This document shows positions 39,892-48,516 of a stretch of DNA of 64,000 nt, in pieces. The notes under the pieces are model-generated. The model made no database searches, was not told the DNA's origin, and saw only the letters and a list, made by a program, of their open reading frames with translations. The DNA is from Prolixibacteraceae bacterium. Lineage in GTDB: Bacteria > Bacteroidota > Bacteroidia > Bacteroidales > Prolixibacteraceae. Made by a program: the position numbers and the translations under genes. Position 1 is the stretch's first letter; each line of letters opens with the position of its first letter. Location: contig JAFLKN010000015.1 of NCBI GenBank assembly GCA_019163175.1, forward strand, positions 62,001-126,000. Direction: 5' to 3'.

Positions 39892-39964
39892 TGTCCTGTG
39901 GTGTAATTGGCAACACGTCTGATTCTGGATCAGAAGAGTTTAGGTTCGAGACCTAACAGGACAA
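39892..39964 (+). tRNA. tRNA-Gln, anticodon CTG, integration site of the element
   Basis: A 73-nt cloverleaf: acceptor TGTCCTG/CAGGACA, anticodon stem TCTGA/TCAGA with loop TTCTGGA (anticodon CTG, reads CAG), and T loop TTCGAGA. The 3' end CTAACAGGACAAC is repeated exactly at 48504-48516, so the gene was used as an attachment site and regenerated intact by the incoming element. Confidence 0.95.
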
Positions 39965-39965
39965 C
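39953..39965. repeat. attL core, 13-bp direct repeat in the tRNA-Gln 3' end
   Basis: CTAACAGGACAAC occurs here and, identical, at 48504-48516. Upstream the two sites stay partly similar (AGGTTCGAGAC here, AAGTTCAGGTA there), which suggests a longer original att site now diverged on the right. Confidence 0.82.
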
Positions 39966-39990: not shown

Positions 39991-40156
39991 TAAAAATTAC
40001 TTGAACCATTTTTGAACTGAAAAAGAAAAAAAAAGAATTATCATTGATTTGATAGTTCTTTTTTTTTGCCTGATTTTTTGGTTCAAGTCCTTAGAGTACT
40101 TGAACCTATATTGAATATCAAATAGTTAAATATTATTTTGAACCATTTTTGAATAT
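39991..40156. repeat. Left-end recombinase arm-type repeats
   Basis: Direct copies of a TTGAACCATTTTTGAA motif lie at 40001-40016 and 40138-40153, each preceded by an A/T-rich TTAAA tract. An inverted pair GGTTCAAGT/ACTTGAACC (40080-40088, 40098-40106) lies between them. Similar motifs recur at the right end (48321-48376). They are probably integrase arm or accessory-factor sites. Confidence 0.6.
40029..40067 (+). terminator. Element-borne terminator downstream of tRNA-Gln
   Basis: An A-run/GAATTATCA stem pairs with TGATAGTTC followed by nine T and GCC. It lies just inside the left end, about 65 bp after the tRNA, so it can replace the original tRNA terminator that was displaced to 48525. 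Confidence 0.6.
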
Positions 40157-40289
40157 GAAGCAATTTTTAAAATTAGGCCAATTTTTTATAGTACTGATTA
40201 TCTAATATTTATATAATTTTACATCAGTGGATGTATTATTTTAATATGAGTACTAATAAAATATATTTTAACATTTAAAAATATCTACT

Positions 40290-40591: not shown

Positions 40592-41353
40592 ATGATAATC
40601 TTACAATCACTAAACATTAATAACCTATATATGAAATTTTTAAATTTAGAAATAAAACAAGATTCGAAAGTAATTAAAACCTTTCTTGTAACCTTTTTTG
40701 CAACCTTTTTTTTAACTTCTATTTTTTCCCCAATTGGTAATTGGATTACACAGGGAGTAATAAATATATTTGTTTCAATAAGTCAGGGATTTTCAAATTT
40801 TTATTATTCATATATTTCATTGAACGATCCTAATGTAATTGATACACATATTATTTTTATATTATGGATTATTGTAACACCATTGTTAGTGGGTGGTTTT
40901 GTTTATCTTTCTGGAATACTTTCTTCACTTAAAAATAAAATAAATCAATTAAAAGATAGAGTTAATAAAAAAGATCAGAGCGTTGAAGAAATTACTGTTG
41001 AAGCATTAGAAGAAAGTATTTCGGATTTTGAAACATTATTATCGAAAACTTCACTTAAATTATTTATTACAAAGGCGATTACTATTATAGTTTTTCTATT
41101 AGTTTATTTCTCTTATTTCTTTCTAAATAACATTAAATTTGAAAACTTAAATTTTCAAAACAGTATTACAATTATTTCTCCATATATTACAGAACAAAAA
41201 GTTCTAGAATTAAAATCTAATTGGGCGTTAATGAGTACTAAACAAGAATTTATATCTATTAATAATGAAATAAGTGAAATTAAAACAACAATTCTTCTAA
41301 AGGCAATTGAGGCTCATAAAGCAAACAAATTAAAGGATAAAGACAATAAATAA
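40592..41353 (+). CDS. Element membrane protein with coiled-coil, unknown
   Basis: A 253-residue protein with three hydrophobic segments (about 28-50, 85-110 and 160-182). A charged helical, coiled-coil-like stretch (ILSSLKNKINQLKDRVNKKDQ...EALEESISDFETLLSK) lies between the second and third. The ATG at 40592 gives the longest frame; ATG 40631 (MKFLNLEIK) is an equally plausible start and fits better if the first 13 residues are not needed. Small membrane proteins of this build are frequent as cargo, including defence or superinfection-exclusion factors, but nothing specific identifies one here. Confidence 0.65.
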   Translation: MIILQSLNINNLYMKFLNLEIKQDSKVIKTFLVTFFATFFLTSIFSPIGNWITQGVINIFVSISQGFSNFYYSYISLNDPNVIDTHIIFILWIIVTPLLVGGFVYLSGILSSLKNKINQLKDRVNKKDQSVEEITVEALEESISDFETLLSKTSLKLFITKAITIIVFLLVYFSYFFLNNIKFENLNFQNSITIISPYITEQKVLELKSNWALMSTKQEFISINNEISEIKTTILLKAIEAHKANKLKDKDNK

Positions 41354-41358
41354 TTAAT

Positions 41359-41775
41359 TTAGTTTTGTATATCTTTAATAATTTTAGCTTTATATTCATT
41401 CATTATCTTTAGTATTTTAGTTTGTTGGTATCTATAATAATCTATTTCCTTATATTGCCTTTCAATGCTTAATTCATCATTAAATTCACTACTAGGAATA
41501 TTTATTAAATACTCATATCTTTCATTATAATACTTAATAGTTGATTCTAAATATCTGGAAAATAGAACTACAAAGTCAATAGGTTTTGAAAACTGAAATT
41601 CTTTATCATTTATTTCCACTAAATAAGTTATAATTCCTGATTGTAAATTTTTAGACCAATATATTTTACCTAATTCTATACCACTTTCTTTTAATTCAGA
41701 ATAGAATTTTATTTTTAATATTTTGGAAAGTATCTTATATGTACTTTCTTTATTATCTCTATTATCTAAAATCAT
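41359..41775 (-). CDS. Hypothetical element protein
   Basis: A 138-residue soluble, charged protein (starts MILDNRDNKESTYK) that is mostly helical at the C-terminus (Y-R-Y-Q-Q-T-K-I-L-K-I-M-N-E-Y-K-A-K). The strands around residues 45-65 (SGIITYLVEINDKEFQF) give an alpha/beta look. It is convergent with the membrane protein gene 5 bp away. No known family is recognised. Confidence 0.58.
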   Translation of the reverse strand: MILDNRDNKESTYKILSKILKIKFYSELKESGIELGKIYWSKNLQSGIITYLVEINDKEFQFSKPIDFVVLFSRYLESTIKYYNERYEYLINIPSSEFNDELSIERQYKEIDYYRYQQTKILKIMNEYKAKIIKDIQN

Positions 41776-42241
41776 AATCCTATTAATATTTATTTGTCAA
41801 TGTATAATGTTGTTTGAAATACTATTAAGTTTTTTTATATGGCTTTAGTTGAATTAATTAGGTAGATAAAATTATATTATTAGTATCAAATAACCTACTA
41901 ATATTTCTTATTTCAGACAAAAAACATATTTTATAAAAATTTATAATTCTCTCTTTTTTTAGATACATTTTTTGTAGAAAAAAATCGTGTAGCACCCACA
42001 TAGCATACATTAAATCTTATTCAGATTTCAGTAATTAATAACAGATACCTTTGTTATACTACCCTTAATGCTAGGTGACCCACTTCAACGTTGTAAAGGG
42101 TTATTATAGTACTATTAGAATAGTATTAATTTGCATATATAAAATAAAAAAACACATTACTAATATTCTGTAATGTGTTTTAAATTGCAATGTATATAAT
42201 GATTTTCCGATCACATATAAATACTAGAATTTATAAAAATA
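41776..42241. other. AT-rich intergenic region with one terminator
   Basis: A stretch of 466 bp without a convincing ORF. Apart from the terminator at 42150-42181, I see only short AT tracts and a lone TGACCC motif near 42078 of the type that is arrayed at 45.5 kb. Confidence 0.5.
42150..42181 (-). terminator. Terminator of the RHH-DUF3987-TOPRIM operon
   Basis: An AAACACATTAC stem pairs with GTAATGTGTTT across a 10-nt loop and is followed on the minus strand by seven T. It lies about 60 bp past the last gene of the operon. Confidence 0.8.
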
Positions 42242-43639
42242 TTATTCATCATTCCAATGTTCTATAAACCATTCTTCAGGTAATATATTTTTAGAATCTA
42301 TTTCTGTTAATGGTTCTTTAAAGAAATCAGCTAAATTTGAATCAATATCTTTAAAATGATTAGCTAAATATTTTAGATTATCTATATGTCTTTCAGTACT
42401 TATTATTGTAGGTCTTATAGTCATTTTTTGAACTACATAATCAGATTTATACAATGGTTCTGATTTAATAATAGTATTACTTATTTTCGGTAATTCTTTC
42501 TTAATTTCAGGTATTATAACAGTCTTTTTAATTGGTTGTATTACTTCTGTTATGTATGGCTTTAATATACTTTTCATATAGTCTATATAATTAGGATATT
42601 CTAAAATATAATCAGCTATATCTAAACCTTTTTCTTTTGCAGAAATATTAAATGAATTATTACCATAAGGCATATAATTTATGAATGTTTCAATCATACT
42701 ATATTTAGTTTTAATCTTTTTGATTGATTCACGCCAATACATCTCTGTTTTATCTTCTATACTCAAATCAGGAAATATTAACCAATCACGATTTGAATGA
42801 TAAGTAAATTTATATGCTTGTAAAAAGCTTTTTCCACCTGATGCCAACCAAACAAATTCAGGAAAAACAATAGAACAGATTATTGCTGTTTTTTCAGCCT
42901 CAACCAAACAAATTGTTTTATTTCGATTTTCAGGTATGTTTAATAAATCCCACCCAAAAATTGGAATTGTATAATTAAATTTATCACATTCTGAATCAAT
43001 ACTATAACTATCACGAAATTTTATAAAATCGTTATATTCTTCTGTTTCTATTGGAAATAATATATTATATATTTTATCATTATTTTGATATTCATTATTG
43101 AAATTTGTAAATGATTCTATTGAATGTAACCAATTAGGATTTACTAATTTGCTTCTATGTAAATCTTCATTATACTTTATTACTTTTCCTGTTTTTAGAT
43201 CACCATTAAAAAAATATGGAAATATAGTACTACCATTAAAACACATTCCTAACTTATAATCATTGTAAGCTTTTCTAACTAAATTAATTTCAAATCTTTT
43301 CTTTAGTCCATCAATAAAAGTGTTATGAATTAAATTTGATTTGCTATAAGCACCAATAGTATTTTTGAGTTTATGAAATGTATTAATATATACTTCTGAA
43401 TTTAAACTATCACTAATATATAAATCATAAACTTTGTCCTTAAACTTACTTTCAGATTCATTTATAAATTCAATTTCTGGTTGTACCCAATATTGACAGC
43501 TATCTTCACGGTCACAACGACCATATTTAGAATCAATTAAATTACCTGTTGTATTATCAACATATCTTTGAAATTTATTTACTTGTCCACATTCAGGACA
43601 AGTAAATTTTTGTTTATTGTATAAGCTATATTTGTACAT
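42242..43639 (-). CDS. TOPRIM-like primase-type protein (DUF6371-like) with zinc-binding N-terminus
   Basis: A 465-residue protein. Residues 14-48 form a zinc-ribbon pattern (C14-P-E-C17 ... C42 ... C48) like those that start primases. The middle has I-C-L-V-E-A-E-K-T-A-I-I near residue 246 and W-L-A-S-G-G-K-S-F-L, then L-I-F-P-D-L, a TOPRIM-type layout with the E...D-x-D positions partly degenerate. Similar proteins of Bacteroidota mobile elements sit beside DUF3987 helicase-like proteins and probably help replicate the excised element. The gene starts 2 bp after the DUF3987 gene, so the two are cotranscribed. Confidence 0.78.
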   Translation of the reverse strand: MYKYSLYNKQKFTCPECGQVNKFQRYVDNTTGNLIDSKYGRCDREDSCQYWVQPEIEFINESESKFKDKVYDLYISDSLNSEVYINTFHKLKNTIGAYSKSNLIHNTFIDGLKKRFEINLVRKAYNDYKLGMCFNGSTIFPYFFNGDLKTGKVIKYNEDLHRSKLVNPNWLHSIESFTNFNNEYQNNDKIYNILFPIETEEYNDFIKFRDSYSIDSECDKFNYTIPIFGWDLLNIPENRNKTICLVEAEKTAIICSIVFPEFVWLASGGKSFLQAYKFTYHSNRDWLIFPDLSIEDKTEMYWRESIKKIKTKYSMIETFINYMPYGNNSFNISAKEKGLDIADYILEYPNYIDYMKSILKPYITEVIQPIKKTVIIPEIKKELPKISNTIIKSEPLYKSDYVVQKMTIRPTIISTERHIDNLKYLANHFKDIDSNLADFFKEPLTEIDSKNILPEEWFIEHWNDE

Positions 43640-43641
43640 AA

Positions 43642-45039
43642 TTATGCTGCTAAAATTTTATAATACTCACCCATTTTATTTTTACCCACAATTTTACTAT
43701 TCTGAAATTCATTTAATCTTCTTTGACCTGTTTTAATAGATATATTATTTCTTTTATATTCACCTATGAAATTTGAATATTGGAATACATCTGGCAAATT
43801 TGAATAGATTTCTTTTTCAATATCTGACTTAAATATTTTATCCGTTGGATTGCTAACTCTATTAATAATTTCAATGCTATTATCTAAAAAATAACTCATT
43901 ACTTTTTCAGCGTTAATCATATCAATCATTTCAATTGTTTCATTATCTATGTTAGTTTTATTTATAGAATTGTCTAAATATGTTCTACTTCTATTTAAAG
44001 TGATTGCAAATTTTATTAAATAATCTTCCATTTTGGCAGTTATATTTAGTAAGGTTTTCTTTTCTATATTATCGTTTTTCTTTACCTTATTTAGCCAATT
44101 CGCTGCAAACTGAATACATTCATTTGATAGCTTTAATTTTGTTCTTCTAATTTTAAAACTGTAATTAATTAGAAAGTGTTCTATCATTTCATTATATGAT
44201 TGCATTATATCATTTTCAGGCTGTTCCTTTAACATACTTTCAAAAGCATTACGATTTAAATCTAGTTCATCTTCTACACAATATAACCACCTAAAAGCAT
44301 TACCATTGCTTATTCTTTCGGGTGTTATTACGTTATAAATTGTATCTGATTGAGTGCAACCCATAACACTAACATTCTTTTCAGTAATATATAATTCTTT
44401 AGTAGAATCGGCTCTAATAATAGGTTCACCGCCATAATTATAATATTTCAAAAAATCTTCCTCGTCACTACCTTTAGAGTACTGATTGAATGATTTAAGA
44501 ATTGATAAAATTTCATCTGAAATTAATAGAACAGCTTTACCATTGTTATAATTATCGCTTAATACTCTGTTCATACCTTCAGAAGTATATTTACCAATTG
44601 TTAGCGTTAATTTTTGTGGTTCTTCAGGTGTATTAATGCAGTTAAAATTATTTAATAACCATTCATTTATTCTATTACTATCAGCATCTTTTAATGATCC
44701 TTTTTTTACTTCTTCAGTATATTGCATAAATTGTAAAAGCTGTTCTTTATACTGTTTATGTAGTTCGTTTTGTTTTGCTTTTATTGGTGTTAATATACAA
44801 TCAAATAAAGGCGTTTTACCTGCACCGCTTGGACTTATAAACATAGTCCATAGATTAGGTCTAATTATTCGATTTTTGATCGGTTCAACCTCATAATTAT
44901 TATTCAATGAATAAGCTATTGCTGTTAACATTAAACTACAACTAGCATTAATATTATGAGTGTAATATTCATTCATTTCTAAAATTGTTCGTTTTATTTC
45001 GGGGTGAAATACAGATATTGGAAAATCATTTTTATTCAT
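43642..45039 (-). CDS. DUF3987 family ATPase/helicase-like replication protein
   Basis: A 465-residue protein with the DUF3987 core: a Walker A-like SPSGAGKTPLF at residues 69-79, a hydrophobic strand then acidic LLISDEILSIL near residue 175 (Walker B-like D-E), and a later VMGCTQSDTIYNV. The C-terminal quarter has a winged-helix look (KTGQRRLNEFQNSKIVGKNKMGEYYKI). DUF3987 proteins are typical of integrated elements and plasmids in Bacteroidota, where they are thought to act as replicative helicases. It follows the RHH gene by 7 bp. Confidence 0.82.
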   Translation of the reverse strand: MNKNDFPISVFHPEIKRTILEMNEYYTHNINASCSLMLTAIAYSLNNNYEVEPIKNRIIRPNLWTMFISPSGAGKTPLFDCILTPIKAKQNELHKQYKEQLLQFMQYTEEVKKGSLKDADSNRINEWLLNNFNCINTPEEPQKLTLTIGKYTSEGMNRVLSDNYNNGKAVLLISDEILSILKSFNQYSKGSDEEDFLKYYNYGGEPIIRADSTKELYITEKNVSVMGCTQSDTIYNVITPERISNGNAFRWLYCVEDELDLNRNAFESMLKEQPENDIMQSYNEMIEHFLINYSFKIRRTKLKLSNECIQFAANWLNKVKKNDNIEKKTLLNITAKMEDYLIKFAITLNRSRTYLDNSINKTNIDNETIEMIDMINAEKVMSYFLDNSIEIINRVSNPTDKIFKSDIEKEIYSNLPDVFQYSNFIGEYKRNNISIKTGQRRLNEFQNSKIVGKNKMGEYYKILAA

Positions 45040-45046
45040 TTTTTAA

Positions 45047-45220
45047 TTAGTTTTTAATAGCTTCATTATAATATTCTATAACCGTTACACGATTAAATAA
45101 ACAGTATTTTATAACCTCTGTATAGGTTCTTATCTTCTTTGATTCCATTATAGATTCAATCATTTTCATTGTTTCTGAATCTAACTTTAAACCGATCATT
45201 TTTAAATTACTTTTTTTCAT
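45047..45220 (-). CDS. Ribbon-helix-helix (CopG/Arc-like) DNA-binding protein
   Basis: A 57-codon gene missed by length-based ORF searches. The protein starts MKKSNLKMIGLKLDSETM (ribbon strand with alternating polar residues), then helix IESIMESKKIRTYTEVIKYC and a second helix ending NEAIKN. The S/T-Y-T-E-V-I-K motif is typical of RHH repressors. It starts 7 bp upstream of the DUF3987 gene, so it heads the replication operon. It may autoregulate the operon or bind the nested inverted repeat located about 275 bp upstream. Confidence 0.82.
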   Translation of the reverse strand: MKKSNLKMIGLKLDSETMKMIESIMESKKIRTYTEVIKYCLFNRVTVIEYYNEAIKN

Positions 45221-45494
45221 TTTAATAAGTATTAATTCACTTTATTTTTAAACTCTGATTGTTGCATCAGTCATAAATAAATACTAGCGGAATTAAATAA
45301 AATTTAGCAAAATTTAATCCATTAACAATTATTAACAAATAATTAGATTCTGAATTTATGCCTAAATAATATATATGGTTATCAATCAGATTTATAGACA
45401 AGTTTTATAATAGAGAAAATATATAGAATATTTTCAATTCGATAGATGTTAATATTTATGGGTTACAGGATAGCTAATTTAGGTTTGACCCTCA

Positions 45495-45891
45495 TTTGAC
45501 CCTAGTGACCCTAGTTTGACCCTAGCAAGAATTTATATAATATTATAATACAGATAGTTACAGAGCAAAGGGTCAAAAGGTCAAAAAGGTCACAGGGTAT
45601 CACTTTTATTTTTAAACGGAAATTCATATATTGTACTATAATCTAATTATAATAACATATATAAATAATAATAGATATTAATATCTTTAATATGATTATT
45701 ATTTAATATACTATATATCAAGATACTATGTAGTATATTATAGGAGTTAGATAAATTATGAAGTTTTACTTTTTTATTTAGGTCAGCCCTGTGACCTTTT
45801 TTACCTTTTGACCTTTTATCCTTATAATATGCAGTAAATCAAATATATATGATTTTATTTTTAGGGTCAAGTTAGGGTCACTAGGGTCAAA
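45495..45891. repeat. Nested inverted repeat with GACCCT/AGGGTCA iteron-like units
   Basis: The outer arms at 45495-45524 (three TGACCCT units; a further unit lies at 45484-45492) and 45862-45891 (three AGGGTCA units) are complementary at 28 of 30 positions. The inner arms at 45567-45597 and 45787-45816 (AGGTCA-rich) are complementary with one indel and one mismatch. The AT-rich centre carries palindromes AGATATTAATATCT (45673-45686) and ATACTATGTAGTAT (45723-45736). The unit spacing of 9-11 bp suggests binding on one face of the helix. It lies upstream of the RHH-DUF3987 operon and is a strong candidate for the element's origin or control region. Confidence 0.85.
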
Positions 45892-45900
45892 GCAAAAAAA

Positions 45901-45928
45901 AAAGTGATAACGGTAAATTATCACTTTA
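45901..45928 (-). terminator. Terminator after the gene at 45952
   Basis: An AAAGTGATAA/TTATCACTTT stem with a short loop, followed on the minus strand by a long T-run. It ends the upstream transcript just outside the right outer arm of the nested inverted repeat. Confidence 0.8.
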
Positions 45929-45951
45929 GATTATTTTATTGAATAATGAAA

Positions 45952-46380
45952 TTATATTTTATTGTATTTCTTTTTTAGTTCTATTAATTTATTCTCTATT
46001 GTTTGAATTTTATCCTTTTCAGTTTCCTTATTTAATTTAGATTTCTGATTCATTAGTTTTCTGTATTCAGTTTGATATGGGTCTGATGATAGTTTTTCAG
46101 CGTTAATAACTGCTAGTTTTAGTATTTCAATATCTGATTCCGTTAATGTTTTATTACTTGAAATCATACTAATTAAATCAGATTTAGGACTATCAATAAT
46201 AGTTACTTTCTTATAATTGGCTAAATTTAGTTTTCTTTTTATAGCTTCTTTAAATTCAATAAATGAATCATCAGGATTATTTATATTCACATACTTTATT
46301 GTTTTCTTAACCTGATTTAAATCTTTAGCTTTTTCAATTGCTTTATTAAATTCTTTTAATGATTCTAATACTGATGCCAT
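45952..46380 (-). CDS. Coiled-coil element protein, unknown
   Basis: A 142-residue acidic/basic mixed helical protein. The N-terminal part has helices around ESLKEFNKAIEKAKDLNQVK, with strand VTIIDSPKSDLI in the middle. The C-terminal 35 residues are a charged coiled coil (KLNKETEKDKIQTIENKLIE). It is probably cytoplasmic. It starts at ATG 46380 after a gap of 140 bp from the next gene and has its own terminator. I do not recognise a family. Confidence 0.6.
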   Translation of the reverse strand: MASVLESLKEFNKAIEKAKDLNQVKKTIKYVNINNPDDSFIEFKEAIKRKLNLANYKKVTIIDSPKSDLISMISSNKTLTESDIEILKLAVINAEKLSSDPYQTEYRKLMNQKSKLNKETEKDKIQTIENKLIELKKKYNKI

Positions 46381-46520
46381 ATTGATAAGGTTTTAAAGTT
46401 TCTACAAAGATATTAGATATTTTAATACATATATGAGATTCTAAGCACTATTATAGTGTTAATGATAGTTTATGTATCAATTCAGGAAAAACAGCAAAAA
46501 CAAGCTAATATTAAGCTATT

Positions 46521-46814
46521 CTAGTTATTATTTTGAATCTTATTTACTAATTGAATGAATGAATCAGATTCATCATTTTTAGTATGTTTCTTCTCTGGAA
46601 AGATATTATAGTGTTTTAATTGATTAAAGATAGTTGTGGAAAGGTTTGTAACTATATACACGTTCTTTGTATTACTAATATCTATATTTTCAATTAAATT
46701 ATTATAGATTTCAATGTTATTTTGGATTAAATTAATCGGAAAGTTTGACAAATTGTTTTCTTCAACAATTTTAGTTAACTGAATTTTAGTTTTAGAAATA
46801 TTAATCTTTTTCAT
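46521..46814 (-). CDS. Small hypothetical element protein
   Basis: A 97-residue AT-rich protein starting MKKINISKTKIQLTKIVEE with several Asn and Ile residues. It has a helix-strand-helix pattern (LNKI-type helix, then VYIVTNLSTTIFNQL). The composition matches the rest of the element. No domain is recognised, and it is called only because of frame length and spacing. Confidence 0.5.
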   Translation of the reverse strand: MKKINISKTKIQLTKIVEENNLSNFPINLIQNNIEIYNNLIENIDISNTKNVYIVTNLSTTIFNQLKHYNIFPEKKHTKNDESDSFIQLVNKIQNNN

Positions 46815-46978
46815 CTTTATATATTTCTATATAAATACTGAAATATTTAAAATTCTTAATTTAACTACCCCTCAAAAAAAACATATATTCTACACGGTTC
46901 TGGGAGTGTGAGTTTCTATCTTAATACGTTTTTTTAAAGGGCCTATCCCCTTCAGGTATAATATTGATAATTAATATA

Positions 46979-48286
46979 TTATACGTTTTCTAAACCTTTA
47001 AAAGCATTTTTGTTTTGTACCTTTTTAACGTAACTCTTTAAGGTAGCTAATTGAGTATGACCAGAAGCCATCATTAATGTATTCAATGGTACATTTAAGT
47101 TAATACATTGAGTTATAAAAGTACGTCTGCAAGTATGCGAACTAATTAAATCACGTTTCATTAATCTAGTATTTTTAGTTTCGGATAGTACACGTCTAAC
47201 TTTAACTACTGAATCTTTAAATAAATCATAGTGAATAAGTATATCTTTTAGTTCTCTGTTAAAATATTGATTGGTTAATCTAGGTAAATTAAAATCATAC
47301 TTCTGAAGTATGCTTAATGATATTGGTTGTATTGGTATCTCAACTGTTATATTTGTTTTCTTATTTTCTTTCTTTAGAAAATAATCACCATCATTATCAA
47401 TATAGAAATCGTATTTAGTTATTGTTTGTAAATCAGAAAATCTTAAACCCATATAGCAATTACAAACGAATATATCTATTATGGTTTGCCAATGTGGTTT
47501 ATCTATTGATAGATTAATTAGCTGTTTAATTTCATCGTTTGTCAATGCTATTATCTCATTTGAATACTTTTCTATTTTTAATTTATAAACTTCCTTTTTG
47601 AAAGTATATATTTCTTTCATTTCTAAATCTCTAAAGAAACTATACAACCGTGTAATACGCTTATGAATTGTATTATTTGCCAAACTACCAATGGTTTTGT
47701 ATTCATCCGTGTCTGGGTGTTTTAAGGTTAAGAAGTTTCTAAAATCTAAAATAAATTCATAGCTATTAACATCTGATAAGGTTAATGTTTTATTGATATG
47801 TGTCTGATAATCTAATAAAGCATTTTGAAGGCTTTTATAGTGTTTTATTCCTTCTCTTTCGTTTAAATCTTTTTGTTTCAGGTTAAAGAAATCCTGATAG
47901 AATTCATTTAGATATTTTGGTTTGAGTACTATTTTTCCTTCAAAATCTTCTGGTTTAAGTTGAATTTTATCGGCTAAACTAAGTTTGTATGTTAGTCCTC
48001 TACTTTTTAGAATAGCTTCTAATTTCTTTTGATCAACAATAGGATGAAAATCTTCTAATTGAATTCTGATATAGTTATCAACTAACTTTTTTAATTCTAA
48101 AGTTTTTTCATTTTTCTTTTTATACTCTTCTACTTTGGTATTATATAGTAGATCATTGGTCATACCATTTTTAACTACTTTGTTTTTGGTGTTTATCCTG
48201 ATTACATTACCGTTCAATTTGAAATAAATATAAATGTATTCATACAAACCGCTTTTATAGGCTTTCAATGTTGACTGATTGTTCAT
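46979..48286 (-). CDS. Tyrosine recombinase (integrase) of the element
   Basis: A 435-residue tyrosine recombinase that catalyses integration and excision at tRNA-Gln. There is an N-terminal arm-binding/SAM-like part (about 1-235). The catalytic domain follows with arginine I in CYMGLRFSDLQ near residue 285, lysine in the beta-hairpin K-K-E-N-K-K, the H-x-x-R block in SSHTCRRTFI near residue 392, ASGHTQLATL with the second His, and the nucleophile Tyr in KSYVKK near residue 424. All catalytic positions are present, so it is probably active. It lies about 220 bp from attR and reads into the element, the usual arrangement. Confidence 0.95.
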   Translation of the reverse strand: MNNQSTLKAYKSGLYEYIYIYFKLNGNVIRINTKNKVVKNGMTNDLLYNTKVEEYKKKNEKTLELKKLVDNYIRIQLEDFHPIVDQKKLEAILKSRGLTYKLSLADKIQLKPEDFEGKIVLKPKYLNEFYQDFFNLKQKDLNEREGIKHYKSLQNALLDYQTHINKTLTLSDVNSYEFILDFRNFLTLKHPDTDEYKTIGSLANNTIHKRITRLYSFFRDLEMKEIYTFKKEVYKLKIEKYSNEIIALTNDEIKQLINLSIDKPHWQTIIDIFVCNCYMGLRFSDLQTITKYDFYIDNDGDYFLKKENKKTNITVEIPIQPISLSILQKYDFNLPRLTNQYFNRELKDILIHYDLFKDSVVKVRRVLSETKNTRLMKRDLISSHTCRRTFITQCINLNVPLNTLMMASGHTQLATLKSYVKKVQNKNAFKGLENV

Positions 48287-48320: not shown

Positions 48321-48376
48321 TAAAAACTTTGAACCTTTTTTGAACTATGCTAAAAACTTTGACCTGATTTTGAACG
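48321..48376. repeat. Right-end arm-type direct repeats
   Basis: Two adjacent copies of a 28-30 bp unit beginning CTAAAAACTTTGA-CC and ending TTTTGAAC lie at 48319-48348 and 48349-48376. They match the left-end motif TTGAACCATTTTTGAA in sequence and orientation. They lie between the integrase gene and attR and are probably integrase-binding arm sites. Confidence 0.65.
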
Positions 48377-48503: not shown

Positions 48504-48516
48504 CTAACAGGACAAC
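48504..48516. repeat. attR core
   Basis: CTAACAGGACAAC is identical to the tRNA-Gln 3' end at 39953-39965 and marks the right boundary of the element. The preceding bases are a degenerate tRNA T-arm (AAGTTCAGGTA), so this is the displaced original tRNA end. Confidence 0.82.

Follow-up and report, generated by a model that had tools for sequence, protein, structure and literature searches.

A mirror-symmetric repeat array beside DUF3987 and DUF6371 genes is a putative replication origin of an integrative element in a Prolixibacteraceae bacterium

The window, by which we mean the whole stretch of 64,000 nucleotides analysed here, contains an element of ~8.55 kb that lies between two 13-bp repeats. 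An integrase gene, an attachment-site repeat that overlaps the 3' end of a tRNA gene and a shift in G+C content, from ~40% outside the repeats to ~24% between them, identify this stretch as an integrative element within a tRNA gene. Seven ORFs of the element were scanned, which comprise a tyrosine integrase, a DUF3987 protein, a DUF6371 protein with a Zn ribbon and four ORFs that match nothing in Pfam; no convincing match to a terminase or capsid family of Pfam or PHROG was found among the seven. The features considered below are as follows.

39892-39965: tRNA-Gln(CTG) gene
39953-39965, plus strand: attachment-site direct repeat CTAACAGGACAAC, the 3' end of the tRNA-Gln(CTG) gene, a 13-bp exact match to 48504-48516
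42242-43639, minus strand: DUF6371 protein with an N-terminal Zn ribbon (Pfam DUF6371, E 2e-28; Zn_ribbon_16, E 6e-18)
43642-45039, minus strand: DUF3987 protein (Pfam DUF3987, E 1e-31; PHROG DNA helicase, E 6e-30)
45047-45220, minus strand: 57-aa ORF, first in the operon, RHH-like by eye only
45486-45523, plus strand: left outer block of four TGACCCT units
45567-45597, minus strand: left inner block of one AGGGTCA and two AAGGTCA units, in the orientation opposite to the outer block
45598-45786, no strand: AT-rich core, 84% AT; 0.18% of the 189-bp segments of the element are equally AT-rich
45787-45817, plus strand: right inner block of two TGACCTT units and a degenerate third
45862-45891, minus strand: right outer block of three AGGGTCA units
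46979-48286, minus strand: tyrosine integrase (Pfam Phage_integrase, E 1.2e-8; phrog_1 integrase, E 2.5e-18)
48504-48516, plus strand: second attachment-site repeat, 13 bp

The repeat array lies upstream of the minus-strand genes for the 57-aa ORF, DUF3987 and DUF6371, in that order, whose positions suggest an operon; position and inference further suggest that the DUF6371 protein is primase-like. On reading the sequence, we also observed words similar to TTGAACC and TTTGAAC that recur near both ends of the element (39999-40160 and 48330-48375), which may be arm-binding sites of the integrase. Over 41000-48250, GC skew is negative on the left side of the array and close to zero or slightly positive on its right side, a change that occurs at the array although most genes to either side lie on the minus strand.

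When a 421-bp stretch of the array was searched against its own genome, it revealed a 397-bp imperfect palindrome with 69% identity to its own reverse complement, and no match was found beyond the stretch itself and that reverse complement. The outer arms (45495-45524 and 45862-45891) are complementary at 28 of 30 positions, as originally predicted, whereas 100 dinucleotide shuffles of 45400-45950 never exceeded 24 (mean 20.4, sd 0.9). The prediction of three GACCCT units in each outer arm holds within the arms themselves, but the left block has a fourth unit, at 45486, that lies beyond its arm; the left outer units start at 45486, 45497, 45506 and 45517, and the right outer units start at 45863, 45874 and 45883. 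The inner arms had been described as complementary except for one indel and one mismatch, and nearly the same arms (45567-45597 and 45787-45817) pair at 29 of 31 positions with no gap. Both pairs of arms are centred near 45692, in agreement with the same prediction, and their joint mirror score of 97.7 bits far exceeds the maximum of 30.1 that was observed among 200 local shuffles. In total, the array consists of 12 TGACC[C/T]T units in the order >>>><<< core >><<<. All eight exact copies of TGACCCT or AGGGTCA in the 64-kb window fall within 45486-45889, and 12 of the 16 copies of TGACC[C/T]T in the window are inside the array. The core, which includes the 100 bp with the highest AT content of the element (89%), contains both of the palindromes that had been expected there: by reading, the one at 45673-45686 is perfect and the one at 45723-45736 has two mismatched central pairs.

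The array had been placed next to a terminator. A pattern scan detected none at that site, its sole terminator-like match (45780-45797) overlying the right inner arm, but reading of the sequence did reveal a hairpin (45901-45910 and 45918-45927) that is flanked by an A run toward the array. Promoter-like matches on the minus strand overlap the units at 45870-45842 and 45881-45852, with a total of 10 such matches in the array region vs 13.4 expected by chance. No DnaA box was found in the element with two consensus patterns (TTATNCACA and TTWTNCACA).

Two relatives carry the same module of array, small ORF, DUF3987 and DUF6371. The first, L180, is the Bacteroidales MAG contig PLLX01000275.1, and the second, L114, comes from genome G384, in which the wider stretch (L179) is a prophage that encodes a serine integrase, terminase, portal and protease. 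The DUF3987 proteins of L180 and L114 are 31% (E 2e-77) and 32% (E 1e-62) identical to that of the window, respectively, and each DUF6371 protein is 33% identical. The small ORF matches that of L180 at 37% identity over 51 aa (E 2e-6) and was aligned to that of L114 by MAFFT only, with no match by BLASTP; two extra small ORFs of 51 and 80 aa, the latter of which overlaps DUF3987, lie between the conserved small ORF and DUF3987 in L114. In all three loci, the array is positioned 5' of the operon. With respect to the suggested search for GACCCT/AGGGTCA arrays upstream of DUF3987 genes in other elements, the layout recurs in both relatives but the unit differs. The units of L180 are TG[G/T/A]CGG[A/T/G], with 13 of the 16 copies of the locus in the array and an order of >>><<<>>>><<<, which is essentially the arrangement of the window. 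In L114, all 14 copies of the TCCGCA unit are in the array, and their order of >><>>><><<<>>> is partly mirror symmetric and less regular. The cores are 83% AT in L180 (vs 68% for the locus) and 81% AT in L114 (vs 59%), and the mirror scores reach 41.0 in L180 and 74.0 in L114, as compared with shuffle maxima of 33.6 and 34.5, respectively. In a mirror scan of the 2 kb 5' of DUF3987 in 98 loci, the window and L114 stood out, with the next score at 37.6; L180 was found later. Direct searches with the DUF3987 protein of the window found no relatives in the genome-contig or viral-contig collections, and the best direct matches among phages, plasmids and the family of the host, short fragments aside, were ~20-28% identical. 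Scans of viral contigs with other DUF3987 alignments were empty in two cases and led to 5 and 2 loci in two others.

We then surveyed 76 distinct DUF3987-like ORFs for repeats in 510-bp regions, each of which was compared with 40 dinucleotide shuffles. Two measures were used, the most over-represented 6-mer on both strands (word) and co-centred inverted repeats (mirror), and a region was scored as positive if it beat all of its shuffles. Either measure was positive in 38 of 74 regions 3' of DUF3987 (two loci had too little sequence to be counted), as compared with 12 of 76 regions just 5' and 5 of 76 regions internal to the gene. Both measures were positive in 21, 0 and 0 of these regions, respectively, and the numbers with z above 5 were 15, 0 and 0 for mirror and 18, 0 and 0 for word. 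Among 180 control regions, drawn from 192 available on the 3' side of other genes from these loci, 13 were positive (Fisher p 3e-14 vs 38 of 74), none by both measures, and z above 5 occurred in two for mirror and in none for word. These measures detect repeats; the status of inverted iterons was read from the order strings and fails for some loci, such as L054, which is one of the 38 and is a palindromic contig end (1830-2349, with arms of 256 bases) that is probably an assembly artefact. Near copies were counted separately (for example, L107-L112; L129, L130 and L116; L091 and L132). The remaining 36 of the 74 loci were negative 3' of the gene, including the window, as its array is 5'. A second set of 26 loci (7 from IMG/VR and 19 others), from which one duplicate was dropped to leave 25, omitted genomes already used, the second fragment L178 and matches without a locus. 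At a threshold of at most 1 of 100 shuffles, this set, which is partly dependent in that the array of L143 is the same as that of L129 and L165 resembles L176, showed positive regions in 12 of 23 (3'), 2 of 23 (5') and 1 of 25 (internal) cases, with both measures positive in 3, 0 and 0.

The unit word varies by element (GTACCA, GTCCAC, GTGCCA, CTGCAA, GTCACA, TGTAAA, GCGGAA, CCGCCA and others), and the arrays recur in two layouts, one of four blocks in which the middle is AT-rich (for example, L014, L015, L022, L124 and L125) and the other of two tight blocks without such a middle (for example, L107, L108, L111 and L157). The window belongs to the four-block type, and its core is unusually long. 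Across the 38 arrays, the AT content of the central 30 bp is 62%, vs 58% for the region, and is the higher of the two in 25 of 38 (p 0.009). Within the family of the host, DUF3987 is present in 30 of 140 genomes. As a side observation, DUF6965 is encoded by a small gene of its own next to the array in L014 (1589-1984) and is fused to the end of DUF6371 in L126 (8835-10169), which is a hint that it is part of the replication machinery.

Mirror repeats also occur without DUF3987. Of 46 DUF6371 loci (L180-L225), 42 have no DUF3987 match, and 8 of these 42 scored above all 138 shuffles (maximum, 38.3), seven at 43-50 bits and L198 at 38.6. The four DUF6371 loci with DUF3987, among which L185 repeats the protein of L186, scored 41.0 and 39.8, which are above that maximum, 36.3 (99% line, 36.2) and 33.1, just below the 95% line of 33.3. 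Five of these eight contigs without a DUF3987 match (L196, L197, L203, L207 and L210) contain compact inverted repeats around words similar to GGAATCAAGGGGACAGGTC, and these repeats may be terminators. We also considered the TGACCCT word as a diagnostic of DUF3987 elements and rejected it: a search of IMG/VR for triple TGACCCT gave at least 120 stretches, and only one of the 120 listed had a DUF3987 match, with both orientations nearby in seven of those listed. One contig end from IMG/VR (L274:68-348) contains nine TGACCCT or AGGGTCA words in a mirror-symmetric arrangement of 72 bits, with no DUF3987 match, and is possibly the origin of another type of phage. L240, L248 and L275 contain TGACCCT clusters in both orientations, and the first residues of their ORFs indicate that these contigs seem to share gene neighbours.

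Modelling by AlphaFold2 of the DUF3987 protein of the window, together with 35 relatives, resulted in pLDDT 85 and pTM 0.84. Of the best 50 Foldseek matches in the PDB, 49 were chains of MCM, CMG, OCCM or replisome structures and one was Orc1/Cdc6; the best E was 5e-7, and the query TM-scores of the 49, ~0.29-0.46, correspond to a distant fold match. Based on this model, DUF3987 is predicted to be an MCM-like helicase, and the predicted order of helix, short strand, helix, helix, strand and strand at its C-terminus (residues ~406-461) can be read as a winged helix. The best Foldseek matches among viral models include phage DUF3987, primase or helicase proteins, and a sequence search of the PDB with the DUF3987 profile gave no match. 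Across 28 array-bearing loci (L054, L122, L171, L148, L096 and L123 were left out), similarity between units correlates with similarity between DUF3987 proteins, with r of 0.67 for the core and 0.68 for the C-terminus and partial r of 0.24 and 0.27, which do not separate the two. Because core and C-terminus track the units alike, neither is singled out as the binding domain, and co-inheritance could explain the correlation.

A similar arrangement was observed on a plasmid. The circular plasmid pSR11 of Salinibacter ruber (11,534 bp) has an imperfect palindrome with 46-bp arms directly after its TOPRIM-DUF3987 gene, in which TTGCAC words are exact in the left arm only. Pfam scans of ten proteins, which represent 9 of the 16 annotated genes and an unannotated DUF3987 frame, revealed no further helicase or replication initiator domain; pSR11 also encodes ParA-type and RHH proteins. 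The repeats of the cyanobacterial plasmids L097, in which the annotated CDS spans only part of the DUF3987 domain, and L099 lie inside or beyond the DUF3987 frame, and neither plasmid passes the test of the 3' region, which makes them weak support for linkage between DUF3987 and arrays. No terminal repeat was found in the linear phage records L094 and L095.

Taken together, these results suggest that the array is probably a replication origin of the excised element, which would be fired by the element's own MCM-like helicase and would resemble the origins of PICIs and SaPIs apart from its initiator family. This reading draws on the same module and array layout in L180 and L114/L179, on the enrichment of arrays 3' of DUF3987 in both survey sets, on units that vary yet track the DUF3987 protein and on the pSR11 palindrome, which follows the only helicase or initiator domain among the proteins scanned. 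It is further consistent with a core that is the AT-richest spot of the element and is matched by the AT-rich cores of both relatives, with the MCM-like predicted fold, with the architecture of PICI origins as described in the available portion of PMC6092414 and with the prediction that DUF3987 is the helicase of mobile-element replication, as given in the available portion of PMC5862659. Several observations argue against it: the window, L114 and L180 have their array 5' of the operon, where PICIs and most of the array-bearing DUF3987 loci found have theirs on the 3' side; 36 of 74 DUF3987 loci have no array by these measures; mirror repeats without DUF3987 are found in the eight DUF6371 loci and in the two control regions with z above 5; and array centres are only modestly AT-richer over the 38 arrays, no DnaA box was found in the element by two patterns and near copies occur among the loci.

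As an origin, the array would function after excision of the element to a circle, when copies of the initiator would bind the repeat blocks on both sides of the core. The most likely initiator is DUF3987, which would bind by way of its C-terminal winged helix, possibly with the aid of the small conserved protein that the first gene of the operon encodes. The AT-rich core would then melt, rings of DUF3987 would load there as the replicative helicase, the DUF6371 protein would prime and the excised circle would replicate. The two-fold symmetry suggests that two helicases might be loaded in opposite directions, which is the boldest step. A broader hypothesis, which we put forward tentatively, is that DUF3987 proteins are bacterial self-loading MCM-like initiator-helicases, two rings of which would assemble in a head-to-head arrangement on an iteron origin of two-fold symmetry for bidirectional replication. 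Such proteins would serve integrative elements, satellites, prophages and small plasmids of Bacteroidota and extend into Rhodothermota and Cyanobacteria, and an iteron word specific to each element could provide its own replicon identity.

The repeat blocks may also be autoregulatory sites of such an origin, at which initiator binding sets the copy number. This dual role overlaps the origin reading, and we consider it conceivable but do not favour it: the clade of the window has its array 5' of the operon and promoter-like matches overlap the units, though their count is no higher than chance, whereas the array is 3' of the gene in most array-bearing DUF3987 loci. We find it unlikely that the array is an operator or partition site only, at which a small protein binds the heptamer blocks and represses the operon or segregates the element. 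The RHH protein omega acts in this manner at its heptad repeats. Consistent with such a site, the small ORF adjoins the array and is conserved in both relatives found, the units are words of 6-7 bp that occur in either orientation, the array is directly 5' of the operon and L022 has an ORF directly upstream of DUF3987 with a NikA-like match and a weak match to RHH_1. However, Pfam searches at E up to 10 gave no RHH match for the 57-aa ORF of the window, and its AF2 model, which features three helices and a poorly modelled N-terminal stretch, has no Foldseek match better than E 2.6. Furthermore, in eight other array-bearing elements, in which the array is 3' of DUF3987, the upstream genes encode HTH_17 (L014, L095, L126 and L128, with L124 just below the cut-off) or DUF3853 (L127) or are unmatched (L125 and L015), which makes an RHH protein an unlikely general partner of the array. 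A two-fold symmetry of 400 bp with an AT-rich core would also appear to exceed the needs of an operator. The original prediction had offered either an origin or an RHH operator, and its origin half is supported by the layout in relatives and the linkage to DUF3987, while its RHH half is weaker. The RHH-class ORF of L022 and the eight loci with strong mirror repeats and no DUF3987 nevertheless lower the origin reading slightly and raise that of an operator slightly. Finally, it is very improbable that the array is an oriT for the relaxase of a helper, or a packaging or recombination site: two Bacteroides records do have MobC and relaxase genes adjoining DUF3987 and DUF6371, but no relaxase domain was found by Pfam in the seven ORFs scanned, arrays of this type are also present in a prophage and next to the DUF3987 gene of a plasmid that is typed as non-mobilizable, and oriT sites are short nick-site hairpins, unlike an iteron palindrome of 400 bp.

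The reading of the array as an origin provides testable functions for two families of unknown function, with DUF3987 as an initiator-helicase that has a cognate origin and DUF6371 as its primase partner, and mirror-symmetric repeats beside DUF3987 would offer a way of locating origins in such elements. If correct, these elements replicate autonomously, with consequences for how Bacteroidota elements spread and for their copy number and incompatibility.

Iterons around an AT-rich core are a known kind of origin, and we did not find the DUF3987-linked, mirror-symmetric variant described; no publication that joins DUF3987 with iterons was found among those listed in searches of the open-access literature, subscription papers lying mostly beyond the search. 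The element shares its pair of DUF3987 and DUF6371 with Bacteroides elements that are ordered integrase-HTH-DUF3987-DUF6371-MobC-relaxase. NBU-type mobilizable elements of Bacteroides presumably have the same pair plus mobilisation genes. Unlike these NBU-type and MobC-relaxase elements, no mobilisation gene was seen among the seven ORFs scanned in the window. Iteron (Rep/DnaA) theta plasmid origins feature direct repeats only, DnaA boxes and a classical Rep initiator. In contrast, the units of the window are in both orientations around the core, and neither a DnaA box (two patterns) nor a classical Rep initiator (seven ORFs, Pfam) was found. The likeness to plasmid origins of the RepA/TrfA type, as presented in the available portion of PMC4980987, consists of short repeated units by an AT-rich region and an initiator gene. 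PICMI satellites of Vibrio are small and of the integrase and DUF3987 type, as stated in the available portion of PMC10803314, from which the word 'iteron' (singular) is absent; the window element shares the integrase and DUF3987, and the PICMI model adds genes for DUF5906, AlpA and Fis (PMC10803314). The closest resemblance in architecture is described in the available portion of PMC6092414, in which PICI origins have two sets of iterons that flank an AT-rich region immediately 3' of the initiator gene. Like the PICI/SaPI rep-ori, the window has a small integrative element with iteron sets around an AT-rich stretch and its own helicase-like and primase-like genes adjacent (PMC6092414). Unlike those systems, its helicase is DUF3987, which is MCM-like by predicted fold, its array is 5' of the operon, whereas most other array-bearing DUF3987 loci have theirs 3', and the array is mirror symmetric as a whole.
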